Origin: Phycisphaera sp.
Lineage (GTDB): Bacteria > Planctomycetota > Phycisphaerae > Phycisphaerales > UBA1924
Length of the DNA: 64,000 nt
Assembly (NCBI GenBank): GCA_025916675.1
Contig: CP098402.1
Span: 2,537,205 to 2,601,204 of the forward strand
Reading direction: 5' to 3'
Part shown: positions 4,333 to 25,478 of the stretch, one piece after another
How positions within the stretch are numbered: position 1 is the first letter of the stretch
Layout of the letters: each line of letters starts with the position of its first letter
Notes under the pieces: model-generated
The model's database searches: none
What the model was told of the DNA's origin: nothing
Seen by the model: the letters and a program-made list of their open reading frames with translations, nothing else
Made by a program: the position numbers and the translations under genes

Positions 4333-4863
4333 TCAGAACAATGGTCCTAACCTGATCTGGGTCGAGCCGAACGACCGTGTCTCTGGGTCGGCCGATGGCA
4401 CGAACTCGAAGTCCATGCGAGCACCCAGACGCTCCCGGACGTCGTCGTACCCGCGTGGGCCGAAGTCGATGAGGAGCGCGTACCCGGGCCCGATGTCTCG
4501 CACAACCGCCGAGCGCGCCATCGTCTGGACGTCGAACTCGCCCTCGCACAAGACCTCTGCGCCCTGGCCAAAGAGGTTGAAACGCAGCACCCCATCCCTG
4601 TGGAACGGCTGTTCCTCACCGGGGCCGGGGCGGTCGTAGTTGAAGAAGTACACCGTGACGAGCACGCCGTCGATGTACCCATTCGAACTCGAATCGATCT
4701 CGCTGTGCTTGACGACCATCACACGGCGCGGCATGACGTCGGCCGCAGGCGGCGGGAACTTCTTGATCCGCCCTTCACCGTGCGCGCACCCGCTCGTCAG
4801 GACGGTGGCCATGAGGGCAGCCACGAGAACCAGCGGTATCAGGCATCGAGCACGTTCGATCAC
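4333..4863 (-). CDS. Small lipoprotein translationally coupled to the giant secretin; pilotin candidate
   Basis: 176 residues. The N-terminus is a lipoprotein signal peptide with lipobox LTSGC (Cys about residue 26). The mature part is a mixed polar domain of about 150 residues with no family I recognise; recognisable pieces are VLVTVYFFNYDRP and GPRGYDDVRERLG. The start is GTG and overlaps the secretin stop codon as GTGA, so it is the last gene of the secretion operon. Outer-membrane lipoproteins encoded beside secretins often act as pilotins that help insert the secretin. That role is inferred only from position, size and lipidation. Confidence 0.7.
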   Translation of the reverse strand: MIERARCLIPLVLVAALMATVLTSGCAHGEGRIKKFPPPAADVMPRRVMVVKHSEIDSSSNGYIDGVLVTVYFFNYDRPGPGEEQPFHRDGVLRFNLFGQGAEVLCEGEFDVQTMARSAVVRDIGPGYALLIDFGPRGYDDVRERLGARMDFEFVPSADPETRSFGSTQIRLGPLF

Positions 4864-7800
4864 TTGTTCTCCTCTTGAGATTCACGAAGCTTTGGTTGTA
4901 GATACGGGCCGATTTGCGGTCCCATCTGGTTCTCATCCATGAGGATCTCTTCTGGGAAGTACCGCGGATCGAATTGCTCAATCGAGAGGCCCGAGACGTC
5001 AGAGCGTTCGATCATCTTACTCGCCGCTCCGGTGTGCGTAAACATCTCCTTGCCGGTCACGCGGCGGGCCTCGGCCACGCCGCCGCGGCCTCCCGGGATG
5101 ATGCGCGGCGTGAGCACCACGAGCAATTCGGTGCGGCGGTTGTTCTTCTCCCGCGTCCGGAAGAGCCAACCCACGCCCGGCAGGTCTCCGAAGAGCGGCA
5201 CGCTGGTATTGCGATTGTCGTTGAAGGTCTGGATGAGCCCGCCGATGACCACGGTCTCGCCGTTGCGCACGGTGACGGTCGTCTGCACCTCGCGCGTGTT
5301 GATGATCGGGGCGGCGAAGTCTTCGCTGATCTGGGTCACCTGGCTGGAAAGCGAGGAGATCTGCGGGGCGATCTCCATGCGGACGAAGCCGTCGGAACTG
5401 ATCGACGGCCGGACGAGCATCTCGATACCGACGTTGCGTCTCGTCACGTTCGCCTGCGTCCGGCCATTCTCGAACGTATTGACACTCTCAATGATGGCGA
5501 TGTCGTCACCGACGAGGATGTTGCCCTCCTCGTTGTTGTTGATCTGGATGGAAGGCCTCGAGAGAACCTCAAGGCGGCCCTGGCCCTCGAGAGCGCGGAC
5601 TGCCAAACCGAAGTCGGCCGACGTGAGCGAGAGGTTGGGCAGGCCCACCGACGTGGCCACGCCCGCGCCCGCGGCGCTCATGCCGAAGTCGTACATGTCG
5701 CCGCCAAAGTCAAACAGATCGAAGTCCAGGCCCCAGCTCGCGCTCTCATCCAGCGTGACCTCGGCAATCAGCGCCTGCACCAGCACCTGTGGCGGCGCCG
5801 CGTCGAGCTCGGAGATGATGTCGTTCACCGTACCGATATACCTCGGCGAAGCCGACACGATGACCTTGTTGCTCGTGGGATCGCCAACCACGATTACTTC
5901 GCGGTCGAGCACGCGGCTGAGCGATTCGCCGCTGTCCCCGCTGATAAGCTCGCGGATGCGATCGGCCTGGGTCTCGAAGTAGAACGCGAGCACACGCTCG
6001 ACCTCATCGGCCTGCGCGTTCTGGAGTGAGTAGACCACCTCCTCACGCTCGGTCGCCTCGATCCCGTCGAGCCGCTCGATCACGTCGGTGACCAGCTCGA
6101 CGTACTCCTTCGTAGCCGACACGATGAGCGTGTTGGTGCGGTAGTCGATGGTGATCGCCAGCCGCTCGCGCTCGGTCGAGACCGGCGTCAGCTGGGCCTC
6201 GTAGGGCACGGTGGGGTCTTCGTTGCGACGGCGTGAGGGCACGAGAATGAGCTGGTCGCCCTGCCGCTGGAGGCTGAAGAGCTCTTGGAGCACAACGGCC
6301 ATCTGCTCGGCATCGGCGTTGCTGAGCTGGAAATACTTCAGGATGCGATCGTCCACTTCGCTGCGATCGACCTCGTCGATGAAGCCCAGGATCAGGTCCA
6401 TTACCTCTGGCGGGCTGATGATGGTCACCGCGTTCGTGCGTTCATCGGCCTCGATGGAGATCTGGCTGCGCACCGAATCGTCGATGGCCGCGCTGGTAAT
6501 CGCGTACTCACCATTCCCGTTGCCCATCTCGTCGCGGATCTGCCGGCGGAACTCGATAATCGAAGCCGACTCGCCGGGTTGCCCACCCACGCTGCGGCCC
6601 GACAGGAGGTTTTCGAGCAGTTGCACGACCTCCCGGGCGTCGGCACTCTCCAATTCAACACGCTGGAGGAGCTGCCGGAGGCGGACCTCGGCCACGTCCA
6701 GCCGCTGGGTGAGCTCGCGCACTCTCGCAATGTCGTTGGCCGTGCCACTGACGACGATGGAGTTGCTGCGATCCTCGGCCACGACGCTCACGGCGTTGCT
6801 ACCACGCTTGTCGTTTTCCGGGTCGACGTACAGCGTACGAATCGACTCGACGATCTGCGAAGCCCGGCCGCGTTCCAGGCCGATCAGGGCAATCTCGGCG
6901 GTGTCCGATTGCCTGATCACCTCGCGCGAGAGGCTCTCGACCAAGCCCTTGACAACCTCAAGATTCTCCTCGCTGGAGACGACAATCAGCTGATTGGTCG
7001 ATCGGCTGGGTTCGATCGAGAACACGTCGGTCGCGGACTCGACCTGGCCGCCGCGTGTGCTCGCCTCGATGCGATCGCGCATGAGGCGCTCGATCCGCGG
7101 TGCGAGTTGCTCGACATCGGCCCCGACCACGTCGATCGTGTGCAGGCCCACCGTCTGGTCGGGCTCGTCGCGATCGAGACGCTCCACCAATTGGTCGAGC
7201 ACCGCGAAGCTCCGCTGGCTGGTCGACACGACAAGCGTGTTCGTGCGCAGGTCGGGGCGGATGATGACGGTGTCTGCCTCCCGGTCGATGCCGGCGCGGC
7301 GACGGTCATCGAAGATGTCTTCGAGCAGGCTCGCTACGCGATCCGCGGAAGCCCGCTCGAGCGCGAAGAAACGCACCTGATTGCTCGCGGCCGCGGCCTC
7401 GACGTCGAGCATCTTGACGAGCTCGCTGACGATGCGCAGGTTGGCCGGGCTGGCCACCACGATCAGACGATTGCCGTTGGGTTCGGGCAGGATCGTCAGC
7501 CCGCTGAGCGTGCCGAACAGGTCGCTGTCGAGCCGGGCACCCGCTTCCAAGGGGTCCTTGCCCTGCTGCACCAGTCGCAGGCGGCCGACCTGCTCACGCA
7601 GGCCCGCCGCCTGGGGCGCGTCGGCCACACCGTCGATGAGCGTGCCGCGGATCAACTCGGCCAGGTCCGTTGCGTCGGCGTGTTCGAGTGTGATGATGGT
7701 GGGTTCGATCCAACCGACCGATTCCTCGCTATCGAGATCGGCCAGCAGTACCTCGACGAAGGCCACACCCTCTTCTCGACCGACGACAATTAGCGAGTTC

Positions 7801-10800
7801 GTCCGCGCATCGACCTCGATGGCTACCTCGCCAGCGAGCGCCTGGCCCGTAGCCGTGGTCGGCACGCCCTCGCGCTGCGTACCCGGCACGCGTCGGATAG
7901 CCTCGCCCTCGCGGAACAGGCCCTCGATGATCGATTGGATGCGGCCCGCGTCGGCGTTGCCCAGCGGGAAGATGCGAGCGACCACGGCCTCGCCCACCGG
8001 AAGCCGGTCGAGCGTGGCCACCAGTTGCTCGACGGCCCGCACGTTGGCCGGCGATGACGCGATCAGCAGCGAGTTCGAGCCCGAATCGACGCCCAACTGC
8101 ACCGGAACGGTGAGGTCGAACTCGGGCCCGCCCTCACCCGTTCCCATCTTGCGGCGCCGCACCTGTTCGGCGAGCGCCTGGGCCATCGCGGATTGGCCAT
8201 CTTCGGCACGTGGCGTGAGCATGTCTCTCACCACGCGCGCCACGTCTTCGGCGCTTGCGGTCTTGAGAGGCACGAGCGACACCGACTGGGCGTCGGTCAC
8301 CCCGCCGTCGTCGATGGCCCGCACGAGCTGCTCGACCCGGTCGGCGTCGGCCGCGCTGGCGACCACCGCCACGGCGTTGCGCGAGGGCAGGGCCACGATC
8401 GTGATCGGCTCGGCAACCACACCGGGCCGATCGGCTTGCGTGGGGCGAGTGAGCCCAAGCCGGTTGGCGAGCGTCACCATCTGATCGGGCGCGTGCGAGG
8501 CCAGCGTGATGATGCGGATCGCCTGCCCCAAGCCCATCGGGCCGGCGGGATCGAGCCCGTCGACCTGGCCCTCGATTCCCGCGAGCTCGCCCTGCAGGGT
8601 TTCAACAACCTCTTTCATCTCCTCGAACAACCGCTCGCTGGCGGCAATGACCAGGGCGTTGCTATCGCGATCGACCTCGATGCCCACGCCCTCGCCCAAC
8701 TGCTGGGCACGAACCCGGAACGAATTCAGCAGCGTGTCGCGCATCCGCGTCGCGGGGATGCCCTTGACCACGAGCGTGCGCACGCGCACGTCGGCCGACG
8801 AGCTTTCGGTCTCGAGCGTCTGCACGAGGGCCCGGACCTGGGTGAAGTCGGCGTCGGACCCACGGAACACGATCATGTTGCTCGCATCGTCGCCGAACAC
8901 GACGGGCGTACGCGGGCCACTGCGGCCAAGCGGATCGATGAAGATCCGCTGCACGGCCTGGGCGATGCGCGACGCGCGGCCCGACGACAACGCGATGACC
9001 CGCGCCTCGGGGAGCCGGCCCGCGCCCTCACCGTCGAGGGCCTTGGCAATGGTCTCGATGCGTTCCAAATCCTGCACGGTGGCAAACACGATGAGCGAGT
9101 TCGTCTCGACCTCGGCCGACACCACGGGCGTCTCACCCGGATCGATCAGCACGGTCGGCAGGTCCGGCGAGACCTGGCGGCGGTCGCCGCCCTGCTCGCC
9201 CTGGCGGCGGGCTTGCTCACGCTGGATCTGCTGCTCGAGCGGGGCGCGGAAGCCCTCGTTGAGCGCGTTGGCCACGCTCCGCGCGTCGGCGTTGCGCAGC
9301 GGGATCACCTGCAATTGCCGGCCGGTTGAGTACGCCTCGGTATCGAACTGATCGAGCAGGTTGCGGATGCCCTCCCACTGCTCCTCACCCGCGGCGATGA
9401 TCAGCGTGTTGGTCACCGCGTCGCTCAGGATGCTCACGTCCCGATCGGCCTGGCTCTTGGCCTCGATGGCGCGTGGGCCGTAGAACAAGCGGAGCGCTTC
9501 GGACACGAGGTTCGCCTCCGCAAAGCGCAGCTTGATGAACTGCGTCGTGCGCTCTCCGCCCGTCTCGATGTCGAGCTCGGCGATGATCTTCACGAGCTGG
9601 TCCATCTCGTCGGGCTCGGCCGTCAGCGTCACGACGTTCTCGCCGACGCTGTACTCCACGCCGGGCAGGGGCTCGCCGGGCTCGCGGCGCTGGGCACGAA
9701 CGGTCTCCCGCAGGGCGAGCCAGATGTCGACCGCCTGGGCGTGGTTGATCTGGACACGGCGAAACTCGGTGGCCGGCGGCGCACTGGCGACATCGAACAA
9801 CGCGATCTGCTCGCGCACCCACGCCACCGATTCCTCGTTGCCGCCCGAGATGATGATCGTGTTCGTCCGCTCGACGGCGGTCAGTTCGACGTTCATCCCA
9901 TCCGGGATGGCGCTGCGCAGGTCCTGGGCAACCTGGGGGGCGCGGGCCTCGGCAAGTTGCACGCTCACGAAGGGAAAGGCCGTGTCCGTGTCGATCTTGG
10001 CGAGAATCTCCCTGATGTGGGGAAACTGCTCGTCCTGGGCCGACACGATGATCGCGTTGCGGCTGGGCTGCGGCGTCACGCGGATGGCATCGTCACGACC
10101 GGTGCTCGGAATCATGCTCCGGATCACGTCGCCGGCCTCGCGCGGGTCCACGGTGCGGAGCGAGAACACCTCGATGCTGCGGCCGACCGGCAGGTCGGGC
10201 TGGTCGATCTGCGCCACCATGTCGCGCAGCAGGGCCATGTCGTCCTCGCCCGCGGTCGTGATGAGGATGTTCCCATCGGCCGAGCCGATGACCGTGACCT
10301 CGCTGTTGCCGCGCCCCTCGGCCCGGGCCCGCTGGGCAAAGAACTGCTGGAGCGTGTTCTGCACCCGCTGCGCGTTGGCGTGGCGCAGCGGGATGACCTT
10401 AATCTCGCGCCCCTCGATGCCCGGCGTGGCCGCGAGCGTCTCGGCGTACCCCACGGCCTGATCGACTTTGGCCTTCTCACCCACCAAAATGAGCAACCGG
10501 CGTTGGCGATCAACCGAAACGCTCACGGTCTCCTGACCGAAGCTGATCCACCAACGCCCGCTGTCGTTCTCCTCGAACGCCTGGCGGATGATCTGGGCGA
10601 TCGCGTTGAGGTCGCCATCCTTGATCGGCACGGTGCGCACGATCTTGCGTGTGACGTCGCTGTTCTCCTGATCGAGGCTCCCGATCAGCCCCAGCACCAG
10701 ATCCATCGTCTCGCCCTGACCAATCACGATGATGCTGTTGCTCGGCTCGTGAACCGTGGTGTAGAGCTTGTCTTCGGGCGGGGCGTCCTGCCCGCGGTTC

Positions 10801-13800
10801 CACCCGCCCCACACCCGCTCGTCGTAGAGCTGGATCGCGAGATCGCTCACCGTCTCATCAAGATCCTCGGCACTCCCGTGCTTGATGCGCACGATTTCCA
10901 TCCGCAGGTCGCGATCCGCCGAGGGCATATCGAGCGCACCGACCAGTTCTTCGATCTGCGCGAAGTCCTCATCCGACGCAGCAACGATCAGCGTGCCGCT
11001 ACGGCGCTCACCCACGACGTTCACTCGGGTCTGGCCGCGACGGCCACGTCCGGACGACTCGGCACGGTCGCTCATGAACCGCTGGATCGCCTGCGCCACC
11101 GTTGGCGCGTCGGCCGTCTCGAGCTTGATCGTTCGGATTGGCGCGCCCTCGACGCTTGCCGAATCGAGCTGATCGGCCAGCGCCCGCACCTCGGCCAGCA
11201 ACTCGGGATCGGCTCGCACCACCAGCATGCCCGCGTCGTCGTCGGCCGACACGTTGAGCTTGCCCTTGCGACCGGGATCGTTGCCGATGAGCACCTGATT
11301 GATCACCTGCGCCACCGTGCGTGGCAAGGCGTTCTGCAACGGAAGAATAGCCAGTTCCAGGCCCTCGTCCCGCGCGGGCGCGTCGGCGTCGATCAGCAAT
11401 CGCTCGATCTCGATGTGCTGCTCGCTGGAAGCCGTCACCAGCAACGCGTTCGTGCGATCATCGGCCACGAAGCTCGGCTCGGGCAGTGACCCGCCACCCG
11501 GGCCACGCCGCTGGGCGCGAAAGAGATCGCGAAAGGCCCGAGACAACTGCTGCGCTTCGGCATTGTCGAGCGCATAACGGCGGATCGACAAGCGATCGGC
11601 CAACGGGCTCTGATCGATCAGGCTCACGAACGAATCGATGAGCGGGAGCACGTCGTTGGGCGCGGTGACGACCAGCCGCGTACCACTCGGATCGGCCAGC
11701 ACACGCACGGCGTCCGGATCGATCGAGGCCTGCACGAGCTGGCCATCGGGCCCGAGCAATGTCAGGTCGCTCGCGCGCGACGGACCGGTCTGGCGGCCGC
11801 GAAATCGACGCGCTTGCTGCCCGGTCGGCTGCGCACTCACCAGGTCGTTGATCGACTGCGCCGCATCCTCGGCGTCGATGTTGACCAGCGGGTACACCTT
11901 GAGCGTGAGCTCTTCGCTCGCCTCAAGCCGGGACACCGCCGCAATCAGCTCGCCCAGCACCTCGAAGTCGGTATCGTTCGACCACACGATGAGCGACGAG
12001 CCTATGGGATCCGGAACGACATTAGGATTCCCGGTAAAACCCGACGGGTTCTCCGTGCTCGCGCGACCGACGCGCTGCACCGTCTGACGCACGACCTGCG
12101 CGATCGCGTTCGCGTCGGCCGAACTCGGAAGGCGGATCACGCGCGTGCGTGTCGCCTGGCGCGGCATCTGCTGCTGGATCTGATCGGCCAGCGCCGCCAG
12201 CCGATCGGTGACACGCGGCGAACCCACCACAACCAGCGTGTTCGTGGCCGGGTCGACAGCGATAATCACGGTTGGCTCGGGCTCTTCGGCGGGCTCGTCA
12301 TCGGTCGCGCTCGGCTCCTCCGACTCCTCCGGCTGCGATTCCTGCACGCCGGCCAGCACCGCCGACATCACGGCCTCGGCCAGCGGGTCACGCCGCTGCG
12401 GCAACGCACTACCGGGGCCGATGGGCTTGTCGCTGTCCTTGAGAAGCTCGTCGACGCCGATGACCTCGACCTTCACACCACCCTGGCTCTCCAACAACTG
12501 TTGCAGCGTCTGCGCCACCGCCGCCGCGTCACCACGAGAACGGTCGATGGGAATCAGCCGCATCTGCCGGCTCCCCGCCAGCGTTGCCGAGTCGATCTGC
12601 TGGGCGAGACTCTCGATCTCCTGCATCTGCGCCGCCGTGCCGCGCACGATGAGCGTGTTACTGCCTTGGTCGACCTTGATCACCGGCGGCTCGACGCCGC
12701 CCTCGCTGGTGGTCAGGACGCCGGCCAGGTTCTGGGACACCTGCGCCGCGTCGGCGTTGCGGAGCGGGATCAGACGCACCATCCGCTGGCCCACTCCGGT
12801 CGAGCTCTCGGGAACGTCGAGTTCTGCGGCCACCTGCTCGGCGAGTTCGAGCATCGGCCGCGGCGCGGCGACCACGACCGTGTTGCTGCCCGGCTCGGGG
12901 ATCACGCGGATCGTGGGCTTGACCGCCTGATCGGGGTTCGACGCGGCGAATCCGCTGACCGCCCACCACGGCAGCAGATCCACGACCGACTCCTGCTGCA
13001 ATATGGTCTCGAGGATCGGCGCCAGCGTCTCGGCCCGCGTGTGCCTTAGGCGCAGCGTCAGCACGCCGATCGCTTCGGGCTCGACCTGTACGTCCATCTC
13101 GCCGATGAGTTGCACGGCCTCGTCGATCTGCGACTGCGAGGCGGAGATGACGATGCTGTTGCTGCGCGTCTCGGCGCGCACGGTGGGCTGGGGCTGGCCG
13201 GGCCGCAGACCCGCACGCAGCGCGTCCTGCACGGCGGCCGCCACAGAGTCGGCGTCACCCTGGGTCAAGCGAACCAACCGAACGCCGAGCTCACCCTGGC
13301 CATCGGGGGCCGCGTCCATCGCCTCGATCAACTTGCTGGCCATCGACATCATCGCGCTGGGCACGCTCAGCACCAGCCGATTGGCCTGCGCATCGGCGCG
13401 CACCGTGGGCCGCGGGATCGACATGCCCGCACGCTCGGCCCGCACGAGTTCGGCCGGCCAGCGCCCGCGATCGTTCAGCAGCGGCTCGATCGTCTGCGCC
13501 ACGCTCGTCGCCGAGGCGTTGCGGAGCGACACGACTGTGACATCGGCTACGGGCATCGCCGGCGACTGGTCGTCGAAGCGTTGGAGCAACTCAACGGCCT
13601 GCATCGCCGCAGCCTCACCGCCCACGATCAGCACGGTACCCGTGTTCGGCTCGGCGCTAATCTCCAGGCCCTGTCGGTCCATCGCGATCGTCTGATCGGC
13701 GATGCCCGACACCGCGTCGGCCAACGCCTGCGGATCGGCACGCACCGGCGTATAGGTCAGCAGCGTTCGGTTGCTCTCGGCCGAGGGGCGGTCCAGTCGC

Positions 13801-16800
13801 TCGATCAGCTCGCGCGCGAGTTCCACCATCTTCGACGGACCAGAGACGAGCAACGCGTTGGTCGCGCTATCGATCTCGACGCGCACGGGCGTGACCTGTG
13901 TGGCCGACGGATCGCGCCGGAGCAACTCCCGCAGAATGAACTGGTTGGTCTCGCGCTGCTGCTCGAGCAGGCGCTCGATGACCGGGCCGATTCGTTCGGC
14001 GTCGGCGTGCGCAAGCTCGAAGGTCTCCACACCCACCGCCTCGGGGTCGAACGGCGGTGTGTCGAGGTCGTCAACCAGCGTGCCGACCAGTTCCAGGTCG
14101 CTCTGCGCGCCGGTCAGGATGAGCGCGTTGGCGCCCCCGACCGCGCTCACACGCACACCGCCGCCGCTAGGTAACACCAGATCGGACACGGCACGCTGGA
14201 GCTGCGGACCGATCTGATCGGCGCGGCCATAACTCAGGGGTACCACACGCACGACCGGCGCACTCGCGCCCACCTCGTCGGTGTCGAGCGCCTCAACCAG
14301 GCTCTCGGCCAGCTCGTGGGCCACAGGGGGCGCGGAGATGATCAGCGTGTTCGTCGCCGGCTCGGCGCTCACGGTCAGCAGCGAGGCCACGTCGGCCACG
14401 CCCAGCCCGCCCTCGACCTGCTGCTGCTCGCGCAGCCGCGTGGTTAGCAGGTCCCGCAGCAACGGCTCCAGGCGATCGGCCCGAGCGAACTTCAGCTTAT
14501 AGAGCTTCACCGACGACTCGGCCCGCGCCGGCGCGCCGTCCAGATCGGACAGCAAGGCCTCGACCTGCGTGAACGCCTCGGCCGGCCCGCTCACGATAAT
14601 CGAACGCGTGGCCGGCTCGACCGACACGCTCAGCGGCGTGCGCGGGCTGCCGCCCAACGCCCCGCTATTGGCCAGGTCGCGGATCGCCGTCGCCACCGAT
14701 TGCGGCTCGGCGCGAAGCGGTCGATAGGTCCGCACGGTGACATCGCCGGCAAGTTCCGACCGATCGAGCGACTGCACGATCTGCTCGAACCCGGCCAAAC
14801 GGCGGCTGGGCGCATCGACGATCAATGCGTTCGTACCGCGGTTGGCGCGAACGACCACTTCCTTGGGCTGCTGCAGGTCCGGTCGCGGCCGACCACGCGA
14901 ATCCCGCGGCATCGGCGGCTCGGGATACATCTCGTCGATGGTCTGAGCAAGCTCCTCCGCCCGAGCGTGCTGGAGCGGGAAGATGCGGATCTCGCGGTCT
15001 TCGTCGTCGATCGTCCGTGAGTCATTGAGCTGCGACACCACCGCCTCGATCTCGGGCATCACGTCGGGGTGGGCCGAGATCAGCAGCGTGTTGGTCGCCG
15101 CGTCGGCCTGGATGTCCACCGGCTGGCGGGCCCGCTCCTCGGGCGTGCGACGCTGGTAGCTCTCTTGCAGCATCGACGCGATGCTGCCCGCCTCGGTCGC
15201 ACGCAATCGCAAGATGCGCAGCGGCTGGCGGCCGGCCGACTCCTGCCGATCCAGGTCACGCACCAACTGCTCGATGATCCCAAACTGCGACGGAACCGCC
15301 GCCGCGAGGATCGCGTTCGTGCTCTCGATGGCCTCGAACACCGGCTCGGGCCCGCCCTGCTGGCGGAGCGAGTTGCTGGAACCGACAAGGTCTCGCAGGA
15401 ACTCGATCACGTCGGCCGCACGCGCCTGCTGGAGCTGGATCAGCCGCGCCTCACGTGGCGGACCGGCCTGGTCTTGCAACAGGTCGATGACGCCAAGGAA
15501 CCGTTCCATTGCTCGCGCATCGGCCACGATCTCGAGCGCGTTGGTCGTCTCGTTGATCGAGAGTTCGACCTCGCCCGCACCGGGCACCCCGGCCACCTGG
15601 GCCTGATAGATCGAGAGCGCCCGATCGCCGACCTCCTTCGCGTCGGCGTTGGCGATCGGGACGATGGCGGTCTCGCGCACCGTCGGCACCGCCGACAGGT
15701 CCTCGAGCATCGCCTCCACGCGCTCGAACGTCACCGAATCGCCCGCGACGATCAGCGTGCCGCTCTGGGGCTCGGCCTCTATGGTCACGCGCACGCTCTG
15801 CCGTCCGGGCTGGGCCGGCGCGCTCAGGTTGCCCTGCCGATCCATCCCTTCAAGGACCCGCTTGATCGTCGCCACGTCGGCGTTCACCACCCGATATGTC
15901 CGGAGCTCGGCGCTCGGCGGCACCTCCACCTGGTCGAGCTGCGACGCCAGCTCGCGCAGCGATTCGTGCATCTCGACCGGCGCATCGATAATCAACGAGT
16001 TGCTCGATTGGTCGGCCGACACCACGACCTCGCGCGGCTGCTGCAACCACGGCATGGGCTGGCCACGCCGATCGCGTGGGATCGCCGGCTCGGGATACAA
16101 CCGGTTCATCGCCTCGGCCACGTCGGTCGCCTTAGCCACCGACAGGCGGAACAGCAGCGGTGCCCGCTCGGGGCCTTGCGTGCTCTCTTCGTTGATCTCG
16201 TCGACAAACGACTTGATATCGGCGAGCAGCTCTTCGTGGGCCGAGACGATGAGCGTGTTGGTCGCCTCGTCGGCGCGCACGTCCACGGGCCGAGCAACCT
16301 TGTCGGCCTGCGGACGCTGGCGATACTGGTCGCTCAGCATCCGCGCGATGTTCCCGGCGTTGGCCGTGCGCAGTTGCAGCAGCTTCAGAGGTGGCAGATC
16401 CATCGGCTCGGGCGTGTCCAGCCGCCGAACGAGGTCGGTCACCATCGCGTGCTGCGCCGGCTCGGCCTTCACCACCAGCGTATTCGTGCGTTCCAATACC
16501 GAAATCACGGGAGCCGGAGCTTCCCGCGCCGGGTCGACGGGCTCCCGATCGGCGATCAGCTTCTCGAGCGTTGGAAGCACCTGATCCGCGCTGGCAAACT
16601 CAAAATCGAGCATCCGCGTCGTGCGGGCCGGCGGCACCAGCCGCTGCACCTGGCCGAGAACCTCCTGGAACAACGCCACCGCCGACGACGAACCACGCGC
16701 CACGATCGCCCCGGCCGCCGCATCGGGTGTCAGGCTGAGATCGCTCAGCGACGGATCTTCCCGACGCGCAGCCTCGGCGTCATACACGGGCCTGACCCGG

Positions 16801-18731
16801 GCCACCAATTCCTGCGGCGTCGTGTTCTTCACCGGCACGGTCATGAACCGCGAGCCGCCCGTGGGCTTGTCGAGCTGCGCGATGATCGCCTCGACCACCG
16901 AGTACTGCCCCTCGCTCGCACGAACGATGAGCTGGTTGATCTCGTCGATCGCCTCGAACTGCGGCGCGTCATACGCCGAACCATCGGCAGGCTTCAGCAT
17001 CGCGTCGGTCACGCGCGCGGCGCGCTGGGCCACCTGGCTCGGCAGGGCCGAAGTAAGCGAGAATGTGCGAGACTCCCGATCAACCACAACGCTCGCCTCG
17101 CTCTGTCGCATGAACCCGACAAAGCGATCGAGTCCCTCGCGCTGGCCAACCACCGTGATCAGGCGGCGAGGTACGTCGACGTCGATCCGCAATGGTTCGC
17201 GCTCGTCCATGCCGCTCAGCTCGTACAGCTCAAGCGCGCGATCGACCACGGCCTGGGGATCGCCACGCCCCACCGTCAGCGTCCGCACGTCACGCGAGAA
17301 CGTCTGCTGGCTATCGAACGCGCGAGCCAGTTCCTCGAACGCCTCCACATCGGCCGCCGGCCCGGTGACCATGAGCGAGCGACCCTGCCCGAGCGACGCG
17401 AACCTCAGCACCTGCTGCTGGCGCGGCGAGAGCAGCCGCCCGACCGTGCGCTCGACCGACGCCGCATCGACGCGCTCCAGCGTGATGACCGTCGTCCGCT
17501 GGCCGCTGTGCTCGCGGTCGTTCAGCCCGGGGTCGAGCTCGCCCAGCAACGCCTCGGCCTGCATCACCAGCGAAGCGCTGCCCACGACGGTGATCTTGCC
17601 CTGGCTCTCCATCGGGATAACGGTGGGCTTGCGATCGCTGGGCACGCTCGAGAACAGCCGATCGAGCTGCTTGGCCGCCTCCTGCGCGCTGACCGCCTCG
17701 AGCACGAAGCTCGCCATGCGTCGACTATCGACAGCCCCGCCATCCGACTGGTCGAGCATATCGATGATCTTGGCCGCGGTCTCCAGCCGCCGCGTCGGCC
17801 CGATCGCGATGATCGAGTTCGATCGCTCGTTGGGCTCGAAGCGCACCGGCGGCTGTGTGACGTCGTCGACCACCTCGTTGCGGTTGCCGTTCTTGACGAT
17901 GGTCTTCTCGTACTCGGGCACGAGCGACCGCAGCGGGCCGATCACGTCACCCACCTGCGCGCCGGCAAGGTGGTACACCCGATAGTCCGAATCGCTCGGC
18001 GGCTGGCTATCAACAAGCCGCAGCACCTCGCGTATACGCCGGATCTGCTCGCCGGTCTCGGTCAAGATCAGCAGGTTCTGCGAGGGCACCGGCACCAGCG
18101 AGCCGTACGAAGCAACCATGCCCTTGATCTGCTCGGCCACCGCCGCCGCGTCGATGTTCGTCAGCGGCACGGCCAGCGTCACGATGTCCCCGTCACGCAC
18201 CCCGCCGGGCAGCTCGCCCTGAAAGATCGAACCGGGCTGACGCGCCGCATCGGCAATCGAGCGCAAGTAGAGATATTCGTTTTCCTGCGATAGGCGTACG
18301 TTGTGCGGCAGCAAGAATCGGTTGAGAATATCGAGCGCCGTCTCGAACGAGTACGACTGGCCGCTGACAAACGTCATGCCTTGCGCGGGCACGTCCGCCT
18401 GATAGATGATGGGGACCTTGGCCTCGCGCGAGAAGAAGCCCAGCACCTCGGAGTACGGGGCGTTCTCGAAGCTGAAGCGGATGGGCGTGAGCGACTCAGC
18501 CTCCAGACCAGGAGCAGGGTCGGTTCGGGGTGCCTCGGCCAGCACCGCTCCGGGTGCCGATTCCTGCGCCGCTTGCACGCTTACGGCCATGCCACACGAC
18601 AGCACCATCGTCGCGGCGATCCGACCCTTATCCACTGCGCTCATCCGAGCCTCTCCCTTCGCCTGCGAACCCGATCGCCGCTCCGCGGCTTGCCCATCCG
18701 AACCGGTGTGCTGTCGCGTGTCCACGGTCAT
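4860..18731 (-). CDS. gspD: Giant type II secretin (GspD/PulD family) with about 50 tandem N1-type modules
   Basis: Outer-membrane channel of a type II secretion / type IV pilus-like system; 4,623 residues against about 600-800 in known secretins. Order: a 29-residue polar leader; signal peptide (about 30-58); an STN/N0-like domain (about 75-165, RFSFENAPYSEVLGFF); then about 50 modules of 70-100 residues (to about 4,310). Each module has the pattern strand-helix (VIPLRNADAxxV...) / strand (TNTLIVSA) / helix ending LDxxx. A canonical secretin domain closes the protein (LVQALIAEVTLDES, LSRPSIQINNNEEG, VTVRNGETVVIGGLI, LVVLTPRIIP). The frame is open for 13.9 kb. The ATG at 18731 overlaps the upstream stop codon; an internal ATG at 18644, with GGAGAG upstream and immediately before the signal peptide, is a serious alternative (4,594 residues). 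Confidence 0.95.
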   Translation of the reverse strand: MTVDTRQHTGSDGQAAERRSGSQAKGEARMSAVDKGRIAATMVLSCGMAVSVQAAQESAPGAVLAEAPRTDPAPGLEAESLTPIRFSFENAPYSEVLGFFSREAKVPIIYQADVPAQGMTFVSGQSYSFETALDILNRFLLPHNVRLSQENEYLYLRSIADAARQPGSIFQGELPGGVRDGDIVTLAVPLTNIDAAAVAEQIKGMVASYGSLVPVPSQNLLILTETGEQIRRIREVLRLVDSQPPSDSDYRVYHLAGAQVGDVIGPLRSLVPEYEKTIVKNGNRNEVVDDVTQPPVRFEPNERSNSIIAIGPTRRLETAAKIIDMLDQSDGGAVDSRRMASFVLEAVSAQEAAKQLDRLFSSVPSDRKPTVIPMESQGKITVVGSASLVMQAEALLGELDPGLNDREHSGQRTTVITLERVDAASVERTVGRLLSPRQQQVLRFASLGQGRSLMVTGPAADVEAFEELARAFDSQQTFSRDVRTLTVGRGDPQAVVDRALELYELSGMDEREPLRIDVDVPRRLITVVGQREGLDRFVGFMRQSEASVVVDRESRTFSLTSALPSQVAQRAARVTDAMLKPADGSAYDAPQFEAIDEINQLIVRASEGQYSVVEAIIAQLDKPTGGSRFMTVPVKNTTPQELVARVRPVYDAEAARREDPSLSDLSLTPDAAAGAIVARGSSSAVALFQEVLGQVQRLVPPARTTRMLDFEFASADQVLPTLEKLIADREPVDPAREAPAPVISVLERTNTLVVKAEPAQHAMVTDLVRRLDTPEPMDLPPLKLLQLRTANAGNIARMLSDQYRQRPQADKVARPVDVRADEATNTLIVSAHEELLADIKSFVDEINEESTQGPERAPLLFRLSVAKATDVAEAMNRLYPEPAIPRDRRGQPMPWLQQPREVVVSADQSSNSLIIDAPVEMHESLRELASQLDQVEVPPSAELRTYRVVNADVATIKRVLEGMDRQGNLSAPAQPGRQSVRVTIEAEPQSGTLIVAGDSVTFERVEAMLEDLSAVPTVRETAIVPIANADAKEVGDRALSIYQAQVAGVPGAGEVELSINETTNALEIVADARAMERFLGVIDLLQDQAGPPREARLIQLQQARAADVIEFLRDLVGSSNSLRQQGGPEPVFEAIESTNAILAAAVPSQFGIIEQLVRDLDRQESAGRQPLRILRLRATEAGSIASMLQESYQRRTPEERARQPVDIQADAATNTLLISAHPDVMPEIEAVVSQLNDSRTIDDEDREIRIFPLQHARAEELAQTIDEMYPEPPMPRDSRGRPRPDLQQPKEVVVRANRGTNALIVDAPSRRLAGFEQIVQSLDRSELAGDVTVRTYRPLRAEPQSVATAIRDLANSGALGGSPRTPLSVSVEPATRSIIVSGPAEAFTQVEALLSDLDGAPARAESSVKLYKLKFARADRLEPLLRDLLTTRLREQQQVEGGLGVADVASLLTVSAEPATNTLIISAPPVAHELAESLVEALDTDEVGASAPVVRVVPLSYGRADQIGPQLQRAVSDLVLPSGGGVRVSAVGGANALILTGAQSDLELVGTLVDDLDTPPFDPEAVGVETFELAHADAERIGPVIERLLEQQRETNQFILRELLRRDPSATQVTPVRVEIDSATNALLVSGPSKMVELARELIERLDRPSAESNRTLLTYTPVRADPQALADAVSGIADQTIAMDRQGLEISAEPNTGTVLIVGGEAAAMQAVELLQRFDDQSPAMPVADVTVVSLRNASATSVAQTIEPLLNDRGRWPAELVRAERAGMSIPRPTVRADAQANRLVLSVPSAMMSMASKLIEAMDAAPDGQGELGVRLVRLTQGDADSVAAAVQDALRAGLRPGQPQPTVRAETRSNSIVISASQSQIDEAVQLIGEMDVQVEPEAIGVLTLRLRHTRAETLAPILETILQQESVVDLLPWWAVSGFAASNPDQAVKPTIRVIPEPGSNTVVVAAPRPMLELAEQVAAELDVPESSTGVGQRMVRLIPLRNADAAQVSQNLAGVLTTSEGGVEPPVIKVDQGSNTLIVRGTAAQMQEIESLAQQIDSATLAGSRQMRLIPIDRSRGDAAAVAQTLQQLLESQGGVKVEVIGVDELLKDSDKPIGPGSALPQRRDPLAEAVMSAVLAGVQESQPEESEEPSATDDEPAEEPEPTVIIAVDPATNTLVVVGSPRVTDRLAALADQIQQQMPRQATRTRVIRLPSSADANAIAQVVRQTVQRVGRASTENPSGFTGNPNVVPDPIGSSLIVWSNDTDFEVLGELIAAVSRLEASEELTLKVYPLVNIDAEDAAQSINDLVSAQPTGQQARRFRGRQTGPSRASDLTLLGPDGQLVQASIDPDAVRVLADPSGTRLVVTAPNDVLPLIDSFVSLIDQSPLADRLSIRRYALDNAEAQQLSRAFRDLFRAQRRGPGGGSLPEPSFVADDRTNALLVTASSEQHIEIERLLIDADAPARDEGLELAILPLQNALPRTVAQVINQVLIGNDPGRKGKLNVSADDDAGMLVVRADPELLAEVRALADQLDSASVEGAPIRTIKLETADAPTVAQAIQRFMSDRAESSGRGRRGQTRVNVVGERRSGTLIVAASDEDFAQIEELVGALDMPSADRDLRMEIVRIKHGSAEDLDETVSDLAIQLYDERVWGGWNRGQDAPPEDKLYTTVHEPSNSIIVIGQGETMDLVLGLIGSLDQENSDVTRKIVRTVPIKDGDLNAIAQIIRQAFEENDSGRWWISFGQETVSVSVDRQRRLLILVGEKAKVDQAVGYAETLAATPGIEGREIKVIPLRHANAQRVQNTLQQFFAQRARAEGRGNSEVTVIGSADGNILITTAGEDDMALLRDMVAQIDQPDLPVGRSIEVFSLRTVDPREAGDVIRSMIPSTGRDDAIRVTPQPSRNAIIVSAQDEQFPHIREILAKIDTDTAFPFVSVQLAEARAPQVAQDLRSAIPDGMNVELTAVERTNTIIISGGNEESVAWVREQIALFDVASAPPATEFRRVQINHAQAVDIWLALRETVRAQRREPGEPLPGVEYSVGENVVTLTAEPDEMDQLVKIIAELDIETGGERTTQFIKLRFAEANLVSEALRLFYGPRAIEAKSQADRDVSILSDAVTNTLIIAAGEEQWEGIRNLLDQFDTEAYSTGRQLQVIPLRNADARSVANALNEGFRAPLEQQIQREQARRQGEQGGDRRQVSPDLPTVLIDPGETPVVSAEVETNSLIVFATVQDLERIETIAKALDGEGAGRLPEARVIALSSGRASRIAQAVQRIFIDPLGRSGPRTPVVFGDDASNMIVFRGSDADFTQVRALVQTLETESSSADVRVRTLVVKGIPATRMRDTLLNSFRVRAQQLGEGVGIEVDRDSNALVIAASERLFEEMKEVVETLQGELAGIEGQVDGLDPAGPMGLGQAIRIITLASHAPDQMVTLANRLGLTRPTQADRPGVVAEPITIVALPSRNAVAVVASAADADRVEQLVRAIDDGGVTDAQSVSLVPLKTASAEDVARVVRDMLTPRAEDGQSAMAQALAEQVRRRKMGTGEGGPEFDLTVPVQLGVDSGSNSLLIASSPANVRAVEQLVATLDRLPVGEAVVARIFPLGNADAGRIQSIIEGLFREGEAIRRVPGTQREGVPTTATGQALAGEVAIEVDARTNSLIVVGREEGVAFVEVLLADLDSEESVGWIEPTIITLEHADATDLAELIRGTLIDGVADAPQAAGLREQVGRLRLVQQGKDPLEAGARLDSDLFGTLSGLTILPEPNGNRLIVVASPANLRIVSELVKMLDVEAAAASNQVRFFALERASADRVASLLEDIFDDRRRAGIDREADTVIIRPDLRTNTLVVSTSQRSFAVLDQLVERLDRDEPDQTVGLHTIDVVGADVEQLAPRIERLMRDRIEASTRGGQVESATDVFSIEPSRSTNQLIVVSSEENLEVVKGLVESLSREVIRQSDTAEIALIGLERGRASQIVESIRTLYVDPENDKRGSNAVSVVAEDRSNSIVVSGTANDIARVRELTQRLDVAEVRLRQLLQRVELESADAREVVQLLENLLSGRSVGGQPGESASIIEFRRQIRDEMGNGNGEYAITSAAIDDSVRSQISIEADERTNAVTIISPPEVMDLILGFIDEVDRSEVDDRILKYFQLSNADAEQMAVVLQELFSLQRQGDQLILVPSRRRNEDPTVPYEAQLTPVSTERERLAITIDYRTNTLIVSATKEYVELVTDVIERLDGIEATEREEVVYSLQNAQADEVERVLAFYFETQADRIRELISGDSGESLSRVLDREVIVVGDPTSNKVIVSASPRYIGTVNDIISELDAAPPQVLVQALIAEVTLDESASWGLDFDLFDFGGDMYDFGMSAAGAGVATSVGLPNLSLTSADFGLAVRALEGQGRLEVLSRPSIQINNNEEGNILVGDDIAIIESVNTFENGRTQANVTRRNVGIEMLVRPSISSDGFVRMEIAPQISSLSSQVTQISEDFAAPIINTREVQTTVTVRNGETVVIGGLIQTFNDNRNTSVPLFGDLPGVGWLFRTREKNNRRTELLVVLTPRIIPGGRGGVAEARRVTGKEMFTHTGAASKMIERSDVSGLSIEQFDPRYFPEEILMDENQMGPQIGPYLQPKLRESQEENK
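5790..18240 (-). repeat. About 50 tandem secretin N1-like modules within the giant secretin
   Basis: Counted by eye on the translation, using the recurring second-strand motif (TNTLIV, SNSLII, TNALLV, RTNTLVV and degenerate forms) followed by a helix and a closing LD. The average spacing is about 83 residues. The first clear module starts near nucleotide 18240 and the last ends near 5790. Copies are divergent at DNA level, so this is an ancient protein repeat and not a recent nucleotide tandem array. Degenerate units such as those near residues 350-580 were counted as modules on spacing, so the exact total could differ by a few. Confidence 0.85.
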
Positions 18732-19735
18732 CGCCGTTCCCTTCCGCGCCCGGTGGCCAGGAGCTCACCGTTGCGCACCTCGAATCGTTCTTCGTCGGCC
18801 TCGAACGTGGCCACATCACCCACCACCGAGGCGAGCCGGAGCCCGCCGACTTCTTCACCGAGCGCCAGCGTGCGCCGGCTCCCGCTCTGATGCACCACAA
18901 CCGCATACCGACCGCTCTCGCCCTGCCACAAGCCCGCCAACCGCCAGCCCTCGCCGGCGGGCGGCGGAGGGGGTGGAGGCGACGCGGCAACCGGCGGCGG
19001 AGGGGGCGGTGGCGCCACGGCAACGACCGGCGGCGGAGCCGTACGGAACGGATCGGCCCGCACCACCGAACCCACCTGCGCCAGCACCCGGTCTTCGATC
19101 GCGTCGATGGGAAGCTCGCCCACCAGCGCACCCTCGTCGTCAACGACCAGCGCCGTCATCGTCATGCTCAGCGAGAACACCGCCGGCTGGCCCTCGGCCA
19201 CGCGAACGGGCTTGATGTCCCACTTGTCCACGCCCAACGTCCAGCGCTGCGCTTCGGCCAACGCTATCGCCGTGAGCACCGCCTCGAAGGAACCCTCGCC
19301 GCCGATGGTCACGCGCACCTCGGTCGCATCGACACGGTCCCTCAGCGTTCGCTGGAATGGCCGTTCCCTGGTGGTGATGCCCCGGACCGTTGCCGCGGGG
19401 TTGCCAAGCGTCCTGGGTGGCTGCGAGTTGACCTCCAGCCGGGTCAGCCCGGCCGCGAACGCCAGCGTCGTGCACGCGGTGCGCACGCGGTGTTCGAGAG
19501 ATTCACGATCGCCATGCACCGAGCTGGCCACGATCGCATCGAGCTCGCGATTGATCCTGTTCTCGGTGAGCAGGGAATCCTCGAACCGATCCTTGGTCTC
19601 CTGCAAATCCTCGATCTGCTCGCGCAGGCTCGCCGCGGGCGCCGCGTAATACGCCTCGTATCCCCACCACGCGACGGCCGCGGCGCCGACCACCCCGCCC
19701 GCAACCAAACCCAACCGGATCACCCTGGGGTTCAC
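18728..19735 (-). CDS. PilO/GspM-like inner-membrane assembly protein with GspC/PilP-like C-terminal domain
   Basis: 335 residues. A single N-terminal transmembrane helix (about 8-28) is followed by a coiled-coil segment (LREQIEDLQETKDRFEDS) and an alpha/beta region with the layout of PilO/GspM (about 70-200, containing SFEAVLTAIALAEAQRW). A Pro/Ala-rich linker (about 232-262, runs of seven or more prolines) precedes a small beta-rich domain ending LRLASVVGDVATFEADEERF, which resembles the homology region of GspC or PilP that contacts the secretin N0 domain. The fusion reading is inference: I see the architecture, not a firm family match. It overlaps both neighbours by 4 bases. Confidence 0.65.
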   Translation of the reverse strand: MNPRVIRLGLVAGGVVGAAAVAWWGYEAYYAAPAASLREQIEDLQETKDRFEDSLLTENRINRELDAIVASSVHGDRESLEHRVRTACTTLAFAAGLTRLEVNSQPPRTLGNPAATVRGITTRERPFQRTLRDRVDATEVRVTIGGEGSFEAVLTAIALAEAQRWTLGVDKWDIKPVRVAEGQPAVFSLSMTMTALVVDDEGALVGELPIDAIEDRVLAQVGSVVRADPFRTAPPPVVAVAPPPPPPPVAASPPPPPPPAGEGWRLAGLWQGESGRYAVVVHQSGSRRTLALGEEVGGLRLASVVGDVATFEADEERFEVRNGELLATGRGRERR

Positions 19736-21276
19736 GGCTCACCCCCGAGTTCGGGCTCAGTGCCGGCTTCCATTCCCTCGACCGGCTCGGCCGCTTGCTC
19801 ACCCTCCACCGGCACCGAACGCACCGACGTGTCAACCTCCAGCTTGAAGCTCGGCCCGGCGTCGGGCCCCTGCGTGTGCACCGTGTACAACGGATCGTTC
19901 ACCAGCCTGCCGCGCACCATGCCTGCGAGTTCCCGATGCTCGCCGATACCCTGCACCGACAATTCGCCGCGAACCGCCGGCCGGTACTCGCCATCGGCGA
20001 ACGAGTAGCTCCGCGACCCGTCCGGATCGCCGAACCATACACCCCCGTTCGACGACCCGCTCAGGTGCTCGATGCGCACCCCCGAGGCCGCCGCGTGTTC
20101 TAGCACGCGATCGAGGTGCCCCGACCACTCGGGCCGGCTCGCACGCAGCGCCCGGAGGTGCTCGAGCCGCGTGCTCTTCAGCACCATCTCGCTGTAGTCG
20201 CCTTGCAGGCGCTTGTTCTGCGTCCGCAACCGCTCGGCGTCGGCCTTCAGATCGCCCAGGCTGATGAACCCGAACAAGCCCACGCCACCGAAGACCGCGA
20301 TGGCCGCCATCGCGCCGAGCAGCACACGCTCGCGCATCTGGGACCGCTCGGCCTTGGCCTTGGTCGGGTTCAGCAGATCGATTCGATCGCACGCCGCCAC
20401 GCCCACGCCCGACAGCGGGAGCCATCGCGTCGGGTCGGCGGTATTCGCGGCATCGACGATCGCGAACGAATCGGCGGGCATCGCCGTCGCCTCGGCCTCG
20501 ATCACCTCGGCAACCGCTTCGGCGATGGCCGAGCACAGCCCGCTACCACCGATGACAACCGCGCTCTCCACCGGCAGCGAGTGCTGCGCCGCCCGGTAGC
20601 CCATCCACGTCCGCTTCACCTCGACGGCGATCCGGCGGACGAAGCCCTCTTGCTCACCGCTGGGCCACGTCGCGTCGATCCCCCGGCTGGTGACCACGCC
20701 GCCCGGCTCGACCACCACCACCTCGACCGACGACGCCCCGGGCGACACCACGATCCGCGCGTGCCCGGCATCGGGCAGCCCGGCGATGCACCCCGAGCAC
20801 TGGGCACGCAGCACCACCGAGCCCAGCTTCAGCTTGGCCGCGCCCAGCATCGACCGCATCCACACCAGCCGCTCGGCCGGCACCGATGCACCGAGCAGGT
20901 CGAGCGTCCCGCCATCGTCACGCAGCACCACGAAGTCCGTGGCCGCGTCGGTGCCCTGCACCGGCATCGCCCGGCTCATCTGCAGCCGCACCATCCCGGG
21001 CAGTTGGTTGTCCTGGGGCGGCTTGGGCAGGCTCAACCGCTTGAGCAGCAGGTCGCCGCGCCCGGCCACCCAGGTCACCGGCTTGCCGCCGAGCCCCGCC
21101 TGCCGGATCTGCTCACCCACCCACTCACCCACAGCGTGGGAGTCGCTGGCCGCCATTCCATCGGGCAACTTCGTACACAGCCCGGGCCCCAGCCTGGGCC
21201 GGCCCTTCTCGCTGCCCACCATCACGGCCGTCAACCAGCCGGCGTGCCACTCCATAGCCAGACGCGTGCCGCTCAT
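19732..21276 (-). CDS. GspL/PilM-PilN-like inner-membrane platform protein
   Basis: 514 residues. The N-terminal part (about 1-320) reads as an actin-like cytoplasmic domain of the PilM/GspL type: an initial strand pair (RLAMEWHAGWLTAVMV), VTWVAGRGDLLLKRLSLP, and a later VIGGSGLCSAIAEAVAE segment. A transmembrane helix at about 335-358 (LLGAMAAIAVFGGVGLFGFI) is followed by a coiled coil (DLKADAERLRTQNKRLQGDY) and a PilN/GspL ferredoxin-like periplasmic domain. In type II systems GspL docks the GspE ATPase on the membrane. The acidic C-terminal tail is not typical. The gene lies between gspK and the PilO-like gene with 4-base overlaps, which supports the role. Confidence 0.7.
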   Translation of the reverse strand: MSGTRLAMEWHAGWLTAVMVGSEKGRPRLGPGLCTKLPDGMAASDSHAVGEWVGEQIRQAGLGGKPVTWVAGRGDLLLKRLSLPKPPQDNQLPGMVRLQMSRAMPVQGTDAATDFVVLRDDGGTLDLLGASVPAERLVWMRSMLGAAKLKLGSVVLRAQCSGCIAGLPDAGHARIVVSPGASSVEVVVVEPGGVVTSRGIDATWPSGEQEGFVRRIAVEVKRTWMGYRAAQHSLPVESAVVIGGSGLCSAIAEAVAEVIEAEATAMPADSFAIVDAANTADPTRWLPLSGVGVAACDRIDLLNPTKAKAERSQMRERVLLGAMAAIAVFGGVGLFGFISLGDLKADAERLRTQNKRLQGDYSEMVLKSTRLEHLRALRASRPEWSGHLDRVLEHAAASGVRIEHLSGSSNGGVWFGDPDGSRSYSFADGEYRPAVRGELSVQGIGEHRELAGMVRGRLVNDPLYTVHTQGPDAGPSFKLEVDTSVRSVPVEGEQAAEPVEGMEAGTEPELGGEP

Positions 21277-22616: not shown

Positions 22617-23332
22617 GGCATGACCCCCGTGCGATCGCCGCCCGGCTCGAAGCCAGATCCAGAACCGGCCTCGCTTCGCGGCACGCTCGCTCCCGCGGGG
22701 GCGGCGACCACGAACACGATGTCCGCCGGCCGTGTGGGCAGTTCCTCCTCGTGAAGGTCGGCGAATTCGGGTTCTGGAGCGACCAACTCGCCGCCCTCAC
22801 TATCCGGTCCCAGATCATCCGGCGTCGCAGGCTCCCACCCCGTTGGCGCCAGCCACACGCACACCCGCAGCGGCGGCTGGCTGCCCGATGTCGTCACCAG
22901 GTCATCGAAGTGATCGACCAGCACTGCCTCGATGTCGCCCACGACCAGTTCGACCGTCTCGCCCGAGTCGGTCGACTCGCGCCACGCCAGTTCGCCCGTG
23001 TACTTCGAGTATGACAACCGCGCGCTGTACCCCACGGGCCCCGCCGGCACCCCGGCGCGATCGGTCGCGGGCCACACGCCGCGACCCGAGAGCTCGAGCC
23101 AGTCCTCGCCATGCCGCGCGTGCTCTTCGGCGCTCGCGGTGGTTCGCTCCAGGCGGTCGAGCACACGAGCCAGCACGGCGCCGCGCTCGCCCTCACGCAC
23201 CAGCCGATCCCGCCGGCCCGCCAGCCCGAAGCCGAACGTAATTAGCGCCGCGCTCAAGACCGAAAGGATGGCAATCGAGACCATCACCTCCAGCATCGTG
23301 AAGCCGCGTTGACGCGAGCGAGTGCGGCTCAT
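22613..23332 (-). CDS. gspJ: Type II secretion minor pseudopilin GspJ
   Basis: 239 residues with the classic class III signal MSRTRSRQRG^FTMLEVMVSIA (Gly at -1, Glu at +5) and a hydrophobic helix of about 20 residues. The globular part includes LARVLDRLERTTASAEEHAR and ends in a long acidic region (DDLGPDSEGGELVAPEPE). The start at 23332 is chosen because it places the peptidase site correctly and forms an ATGA overlap with the gspI stop codon. A longer open frame to 23494 would only add non-prepilin sequence. GspJ with GspI and GspK forms the pseudopilus tip complex in known systems. Confidence 0.85.
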   Translation of the reverse strand: MSRTRSRQRGFTMLEVMVSIAILSVLSAALITFGFGLAGRRDRLVREGERGAVLARVLDRLERTTASAEEHARHGEDWLELSGRGVWPATDRAGVPAGPVGYSARLSYSKYTGELAWRESTDSGETVELVVGDIEAVLVDHFDDLVTTSGSQPPLRVCVWLAPTGWEPATPDDLGPDSEGGELVAPEPEFADLHEEELPTRPADIVFVVAAPAGASVPRSEAGSGSGFEPGGDRTGVMP

Positions 23333-24753: not shown

Positions 24754-24814
24754 GGCTAACGCTCCCCTCCGTGAGCGATGGCTACCGCCGTTCGATGCCC
24801 ATCGCCATCGCAAC

Positions 24815-25339: not shown

Positions 25340-25478
25340 CGTTCCGTCACCTTCCGGGCCCGGCCGGCCCGCCCCCTGTGCCTCGTTGTTCGACAACCCA
25401 ATCCACGTGGTCACCGGGCCGAATGGCCCTGCGATTAGTTTACGCTTACTTACCGGCGTGCGTAACACCCGTCGGCCA

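Follow-up and report, generated by a model that had tools for sequence, protein, structure and literature searches.

Known secretins are assembled from 12–19 protomers and stack their N domains as rings, with about three N1-type modules in an ordinary GspD and about three to six in ordinary pores. In such machines the N0 domain is involved in contacting inner-membrane partners, and the number of rings is described as depending on the machine (PMC10550240). The PilQ of Thermus thermophilus lengthens its periplasmic channel with extra N-domain rings, six stacked rings giving a structure 350 Å long that is said to span most of the wide periplasm of this cell (PMC5745081). The secretin described here would share with PilQ both the extra rings and the wide-periplasm cell; PilQ differs in having about eight times fewer modules and in being a T4P/DNA-uptake secretin with no T2SS operon. 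The Deinococcus DR_0774 secretin (PDB 8co1) matches the module profile described below (E 1.2e-21) but has only 740 aa in all. No description of a secretin such as the present one was found among open-licence PMC papers.

The window analyzed here, a stretch of 64,000 nucleotides from a Phycisphaera sp. genome, has at 4860..18731 one uninterrupted open reading frame with an ATG start, which encodes a protein of 4,623 aa and about 500 kDa (this and all window features below lie on the minus strand unless stated otherwise). GC over the gene is 67%, and an antisense open frame of 1,074 aa across it (15069-18293, plus strand) is probably a shadow of the high GC. The protein consists of an N0-like start, 50 contiguous N1-type modules and a GspD-type secretin domain, the outer-membrane pore (5097..5594, residues 4380-4545), which is intact, as an earlier note made from the DNA letters had claimed: Pfam PF00263 Secretin matched it with E 5.3e-46, and an alignment profile (A2) matched GspD chains with E 3.9e-92. 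The NCBIfam GspD model TIGR02517, whose cut-off is 351 bits, scored the giant at 1,151.7 bits. By sequence the protein is thus placed, in the domains tested and with its N0 assigned through relatives, among GspD-type secretins. With GspD (TIGR02517; PDB 5wq7, 5wq8, 6i1x, 6hcg) it shares an N0-like start, N1-type modules, a secretin pore and an operon with F, G and K/L/M-like genes; it differs in its 50 modules and in that some of its relatives break the chain inside a module into two or three exported pieces. The kind is known, and what is new is the 50-module variant, possibly with a new assembly logic based on split-domain junctions.

The gene forms the end of a type II secretion operon comprising F, G, pilin-like genes, K/L/M-like genes and D, which bears out the coherent secretion operon proposed in the earlier note. 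The presence in it of GspF, the inner-membrane platform protein (25523..26713; T2SSF E 3.9e-50), and GspG, the major pseudopilin (24815..25468; T2SSG E 2.7e-20), marks the system as type II. These are followed by two pilin-like proteins with a prepilin N-methylation motif (23821..24951 and 22613..23494), between which lies a 162-aa protein with no Pfam match (23329..23817) that has a homologue in L053 and, weakly, in L209. A GspK-like protein (21273..22616) matched Pfam HHH_3 and, weakly, NCBIfam GspK (E 0.013), and a GspL-like protein (19732..21276), named by position, has homologues in relatives' loci; among 44 such loci, taken with flanks of only a few kb, L was found in 28 and was not found in the other 16, and all four split loci with longer flanks carry L, F and G homologues. 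The GspM-like protein, again named by position (18728..19735, 335 aa), combines a Pro-rich linker with a conserved C-terminal domain. One of 16 members of its family gave a T2SSC match (E 0.078), and a PDB profile search with the C-terminal domain returned no match of GspC-HR type; that the domain is GspC-HR is our guess, and the protein may be a GspM-GspC fusion. On the other side of the giant, a 176-aa protein (4333..4863) that overlaps the secretin stop by 4 nt carries a lipobox-like LTSGC and has a homologue in 11 of 44 loci; it is a candidate lipoprotein, for which a pilotin role would be a guess. No GspE ATPase was seen in the window: the source genome (G000, 3.6 Mb) has 14 T2SSE ATPase matches, all of them located elsewhere, and 7 secretin matches.

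The module count was taken from an HMM built on the protein's own modules and then iterated. The earlier note had counted about 50 N1-type modules; the iterated HMM gave exactly 50 (5799..18170, residues 188-4311; Secretin_N type, beta-alpha-beta-beta-alpha), all with i-E below 1e-8 and with a largest intermodule gap of 26 aa, and a second HMM, built from 45 proteins with that of the window included, gave 50 again. Pfam PF03958 Secretin_N matched 41 stretches of the giant (1,246 bits), which together with the protein's own HMM identifies the modules as the N1-type ring-building module of secretins and GspD. The module profile matched the GspD N-domains of PDB 5wq7 with E 9.4e-35. An AlphaFold2 model of four modules (42 sequences) had a mean pLDDT of 88.8 and a pTM of 0.51 and consisted of beta-alpha-beta-beta-alpha modules, while a model of modules 44-50 with the secretin domain had a pLDDT of 76.3 and a pTM of 0.38. 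The best structure matches of these models were N domains of GspD, XcpQ and PilQ, with single modules 1.4-2.5 Å from GspD and PilQ N domains (Z about 9-10) and stretches of two to three domains 4.5-9.4 Å or worse from GspD/XcpQ. The predicted fold is therefore N1/KH-like, as the earlier note had supposed; of the structure prediction that it suggested for module runs, the module fold was obtained, and the overall arrangement came without confidence. Ring-stack geometry taken from the AlphaFold2 monomers was dropped, the fold being clear and the module-to-module placement not. Position-wise hydropathy of 1,660 giant modules correlated with that of 72 modules of 36 ordinary secretins at r 0.966, the last module of each protein excluded, a value which is probably dominated by fold-core positions.

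The N-terminal segment with the N0-like domain (18174..18554, residues 60-186, core about 81-166) is preceded by a signal-peptide-like start at residues about 30-55, recognized by inspection and by a simple rule, and by inspection the likely start of the signal peptide is near Met30. As to the STN/N0-like start claimed earlier, Pfam PF21305 matched 7 of 12 aligned N-terminal segments (best E 3.2e-5), the window's own copy being unmatched, STN gave no Pfam match in the window protein, and a profile of the N-terminal segment searched against the PDB had no GspD among its matches.

A gene of this size might be an assembly artefact or a decaying repeat gene, and one relative has features of this kind: in G019 the gene is spread over three frames, of which the second lacks a signal peptide and begins within a module, so that such breaks do occur in single genomes. 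The three-frame giant of this genome (L063), whose later frames have no signal peptide, looks frameshift-like, by sequencing error or decay, rather than truly split. For the gene as such we give this explanation practically no weight, and for the family it is refuted. The source genome is one contig of 3.62 Mb with 99.97% completeness, all six same-genus genomes fetched have, like the window, exactly 50 modules each, and frames of 3,776-4,933 aa occur in eight single-contig genomes (G065, G161, G033, G297, G302, G334, G487 and G533). Because the modules have diverged (pairwise identity among the 50 averages 27%, maximum 47%) and TRF detected no tandem repeat in the DNA of the gene, an error by which identical repeats collapsed or expanded is unlikely. 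Whole-gene dN/dS between the window and four same-genus genomes was 0.115-0.184, which points to purifying selection. The earlier judgment that the gene is selected and is no assembly accident is upheld by these results.

A search for the same architecture in relatives, as had been suggested, found it widely. Of 301 genomes of the order, 292 showed some similarity to the C-terminal 491 aa (E 1e-20) and 108 carry a frame of at least 3,000 aa; in the window's own family presence is patchy, a good part showing weak matches only. In a class sample 156 of 298 genomes matched at E 1e-45, with frames of at least 3,000 aa in 41 genomes outside the order, and in a phylum sample 32 of 392 genomes matched at E 1e-45, no match outside the class exceeding 1,341 aa. 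A Secretin_N search of 246 phylum genomes, in which up to 23 candidates per genome were scored, gave as the longest outside-class frame among the matches listed one of 2,701 aa, an N-domain-only protein (G677). Single-chain frames contain 20 to 63 modules, the smallest number being that of L089 (20 modules), a single chain that has both N0 and secretin and appears complete, and the longest fetched protein being L076 (6,165 aa, 63 modules). The many-module loci are annotated as Phycisphaera sp., Phycisphaeraceae, Phycisphaerales or Phycisphaerae, some only as Planctomycetota or 'bacterium' (L123), with the exceptions of L124 (Planctomycetaceae) and L129 (uncultured Verrucomicrobia).

To compare module order, the modules of relatives were mapped by best match onto the window's 50. 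The rank correlation was 1.00 for nine members of the genus and family, 0.85-1.00 for four f2 members and 0.92 for one f4 member. The modules are thus collinear from family to family, which gives every one of them an identity of its own, one-to-one within the taxonomic order (families f1, f2 and f4). For 13 proteins beyond these families the correlation was 0.20-0.52, with neighbor steps near the shuffled level, and there mainly modules among 42-50, the secretin-proximal part (5799..8273), keep their order, several of them still mapping in sequence. Changes in array length are block losses (L053 is without modules 7-15 and 29-30), and window modules 9-11 resemble modules 14-16. Per-module dN/dS, taken from one comparison, is mostly below 0.2, with a highest value of 0.68 for module 6.

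Modules of such individuality could each bind a different substrate or the cell wall, so that the array would form a lateral scaffold around the pore. The mean identity of 27% between modules and the loops that bring 7 of the 50 above 88 aa would agree with such docking sites; nevertheless, Pfam detected no additional domain in the array, in profile the modules resemble ordinary ring modules, and the loop of module 25 varies from 29 to 201 aa among relatives, unlike a fixed binding site. We regard this explanation as very unlikely. Module 25 (12174..12536) is the longest module match, at 121 aa, because of its alpha1-beta2 loop (12300..12413, residues 2107-2144), which contains a short, moderately hydrophobic segment, and it is the module that is divided between two chains in relatives of genus g86.

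Multi-chain forms of this kind, with their half-module junctions and signal-peptide-like segments, go beyond what the earlier note contained. Relatives encode the stack as two or three adjacent chains in 15 loci, usually with signal-peptide-like starts. Ten genomes of the class (f19, f17 and f21) have a secretin chain of about 1,500-1,750 aa with 12-15 modules, to which an adjacent upstream frame adds 23-30 modules, or, in G328, two such frames contribute 10 and 14, the totals being 36-45 modules (that of G501 counts one stray match in a 331-aa frame). Most split chains open with a hydrophobic signal-like stretch, which is missing, for example, from the first G501 chain as its start was called. 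The N0 profile matched the most upstream chain in 9 of these 10 loci (i-E 7e-8 to 0.028; none in G501) and none of their non-first chains. A second split lineage, g86 (G028, G057 and G123, with L123 and L122 as copies of two), has N0 on the first chain in all three genomes (i-E about 1e-44) together with 17-19 modules, and 24 modules on the secretin chain; L127 and L132 contribute a single junction apiece, their first chains being truncated where the contig ends. The split forms thus keep N0, modules and secretin in this order.

We counted 16 junctions in the 15 loci, with G019 and L129 excluded because their later frames without signal peptide look like frameshifts; the junction genomes are related, and the tally represents at least two lineages, not 16 events. 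At 14 of the 16 junctions the upstream chain ends in a half-module covering beta1-alpha1 (HMM positions 1-7 to 27-44), the two others being the first junction of G328 and that of G482. At all 16 the downstream chain has a partial module before its first full one at E up to 0.01 (15 of 16 at E up to 0.0015), beginning at HMM position 28 or later in 11 and at 12-20 in 5. By comparison, the ends of 38 single-chain giants gave such matches at E up to 0.01 in 3 of 38 heads (two of them contig-cut and starting inside modules) and 3 of 38 tails, and shuffled giant ends in 20 of 760 heads and 16 of 760 tails. Among shuffled junction ends, 34 of 900 tails and 28 of 960 heads reached E 0.01, and 8 of 900 and 5 of 960, respectively, reached E 0.0015. 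In g86 the best match of the first-chain tails was to the first half of window module 25 (3 of 3) and that of the second-chain heads to its second half (2 of 2 tried), and therefore one domain of the window protein is divided here between two exported proteins.

Outside the class, the Planctomycetota loci L207-L214 share the same modules, N0 in some cases and a half-module C-terminus on N-domain-only proteins; they differ in that their secretins are about 1,300-1,400 aa long and their modules, 6-30 per chain, are spread over separate genes. Four of these genomes (L208/G677, L209/G579, L210/G691 and L212/G648) encode N-domain-only proteins with 6-30 modules, N0 being clear in three, which end in or near a half-module followed by an R/G-rich tail. 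In G579 such a protein is encoded ahead of F, G, K and a secretin. No complementary half-module was found in either of the two outside-class secretins checked (G677 and G691). The N-domain-only proteins may be related to the upstream chains, and they may be ancestors or partners of the giant. In a Planctomycetaceae MAG (L145) a protein with N0 and 17 modules (9069-15752) lies 2.2 kb downstream of a 9-module secretin, and its last residues look half-module-like by eye.

Traces resembling these breaks were also seen in unbroken proteins. Five single-chain giants of f8 and f28 (L077, L078, L081, L095 and L086) have a gap of 169-278 aa located 14-15 modules before the secretin, close to the break of the split forms (12-15 modules), and by eye these gaps contain signal-peptide-like segments with AxA-type ends. 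Gaps of over about 100 aa number 17 in 11 of 38 proteins, five of them 14-15 modules before the secretin, two 11 before and the rest elsewhere. In the window's order the corresponding place would be the loop of module 25, where g86 breaks. The hydrophobicity of this loop is strong in some proteins (L068 and L062) and ordinary in others, the window included; its most hydrophobic 12-mer exceeded 1.92 in 5 of 20 proteins and was 1.73 in the window and 1.08 in L059. The window segment is a candidate, though a weak one, for a decayed signal peptide. The best 12-mers of the five gap proteins (mean 1.76-2.62) overlap the module-core background (90th percentile 1.92, 95th 2.07). With a simple signal-peptide rule, a crude one that found the N-terminal signal in only 25 of 38 giants, signal-like sites were 3.5 times as frequent in long loops and gaps (7 in 13,498 aa) as in module cores (20 in 133,563 aa; Poisson p 0.005); the rule detected the segments of L078, L081 and L086, missed those of L077 and L095, and in the window gave no internal site in any loop and one in a module core. 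Hydrophobicity alone being insufficient, the case for such scars depends on position and on AxA-like ends judged by eye, and we treat it as a lead rather than a result.

The enrichment of signal-like sites in long loops and the matching gap position suggest that the single-chain giants may be fusions of two or three genes, some of which may still be cut. Carried further, the single-chain giants would act as polyproteins from which signal peptidase, by cutting internal loop segments, would release the same two or three chains, and a multi-chain ring tube would be held together by split domains, with beta1-alpha1 of one chain and beta2-beta3-alpha2 of its successor combining to restore each junction module. 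We put this full scheme forward tentatively and consider it rather unlikely.

For the giant itself we lean, with modest confidence, towards a type II outer-membrane secretin GspD whose periplasmic part consists of an N0-like domain and 50 ring-building modules, with the protomers stacked in one continuous tube. The pore would be placed in the outer membrane, about 50 rings would run through the periplasm, and the N0 end would dock at the inner-membrane platform. At 2.5-4 nm per ring, our own estimate, a tube in which each module forms a ring would measure about 125-200 nm, and it would work where the periplasm is deep, guiding substrate and pseudopilus across; ring formation by every module, the length and the function are what we infer. 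A continuous stack is the simplest reading because N0 and the pore lie at opposite ends and the chains share half-modules, and breaks inside modules would be expected of chains that have to remain attached to one another within a single stack. The confinement of N0 to the most upstream split chain, the collinear order, the purifying selection, the GspD-like sequence and fold of the modules and their hydropathy profile also support it, and the six stacked rings of Thermus PilQ are a precedent. A greatly enlarged periplasm is described for the planctomycete Planctopirus limnophila (PMC5394234), and cells of Mucisphaera, a species of Phycisphaeraceae, are given as 0.4-1.1 µm wide and as having no crateriform structures (PMC8882080).

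Several observations count against a continuous tube. Described Phycisphaeraceae are said to be without crateriform structures (PMC8882080), and no report of a 100-nm periplasm in Phycisphaerae was found in open-licence PMC papers. The AlphaFold2 monomers had low pTM values and poor multi-domain matches, half-module ends also occur on outside-class N-domain-only proteins with no complementary half on the two secretins checked, and the distal modules may do something else beyond f1, f2 and f4, because order there is lost except near the secretin. These last data also bear on a hybrid arrangement, in which about 8-10 secretin-proximal modules form rings and the rest serve as a flexible beaded tether between the outer-membrane pore and the inner-membrane platform over a variable distance. 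That the modules near the secretin are those keeping their order across the class would be expected from such a design, as would the low pTM of the four-module model, the range of 20 to 63 modules in single-chain frames and a planctomycete periplasm whose depth varies between cells (PMC5394234). A tether has no need of a fixed order, yet the modules are collinear one to one over f1, f2 and f4; cut into two or three chains it would tether no longer unless the pieces re-join; and the distal modules are also under purifying selection. We regard the hybrid as possible, though not probable.

Under the preferred reading of a continuous tube, the protein would be a conduit several times longer than the 350-Å PilQ. 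Known secretins have few periplasmic rings, and for PilQ a number of six is described as unusual (PMC5745081). Whether ring number follows periplasm depth becomes testable in a class-wide lineage whose single-chain frames contain 20-63 modules, and the split forms that occur naturally reveal the places at which a stack of this kind can be cut and joined again.
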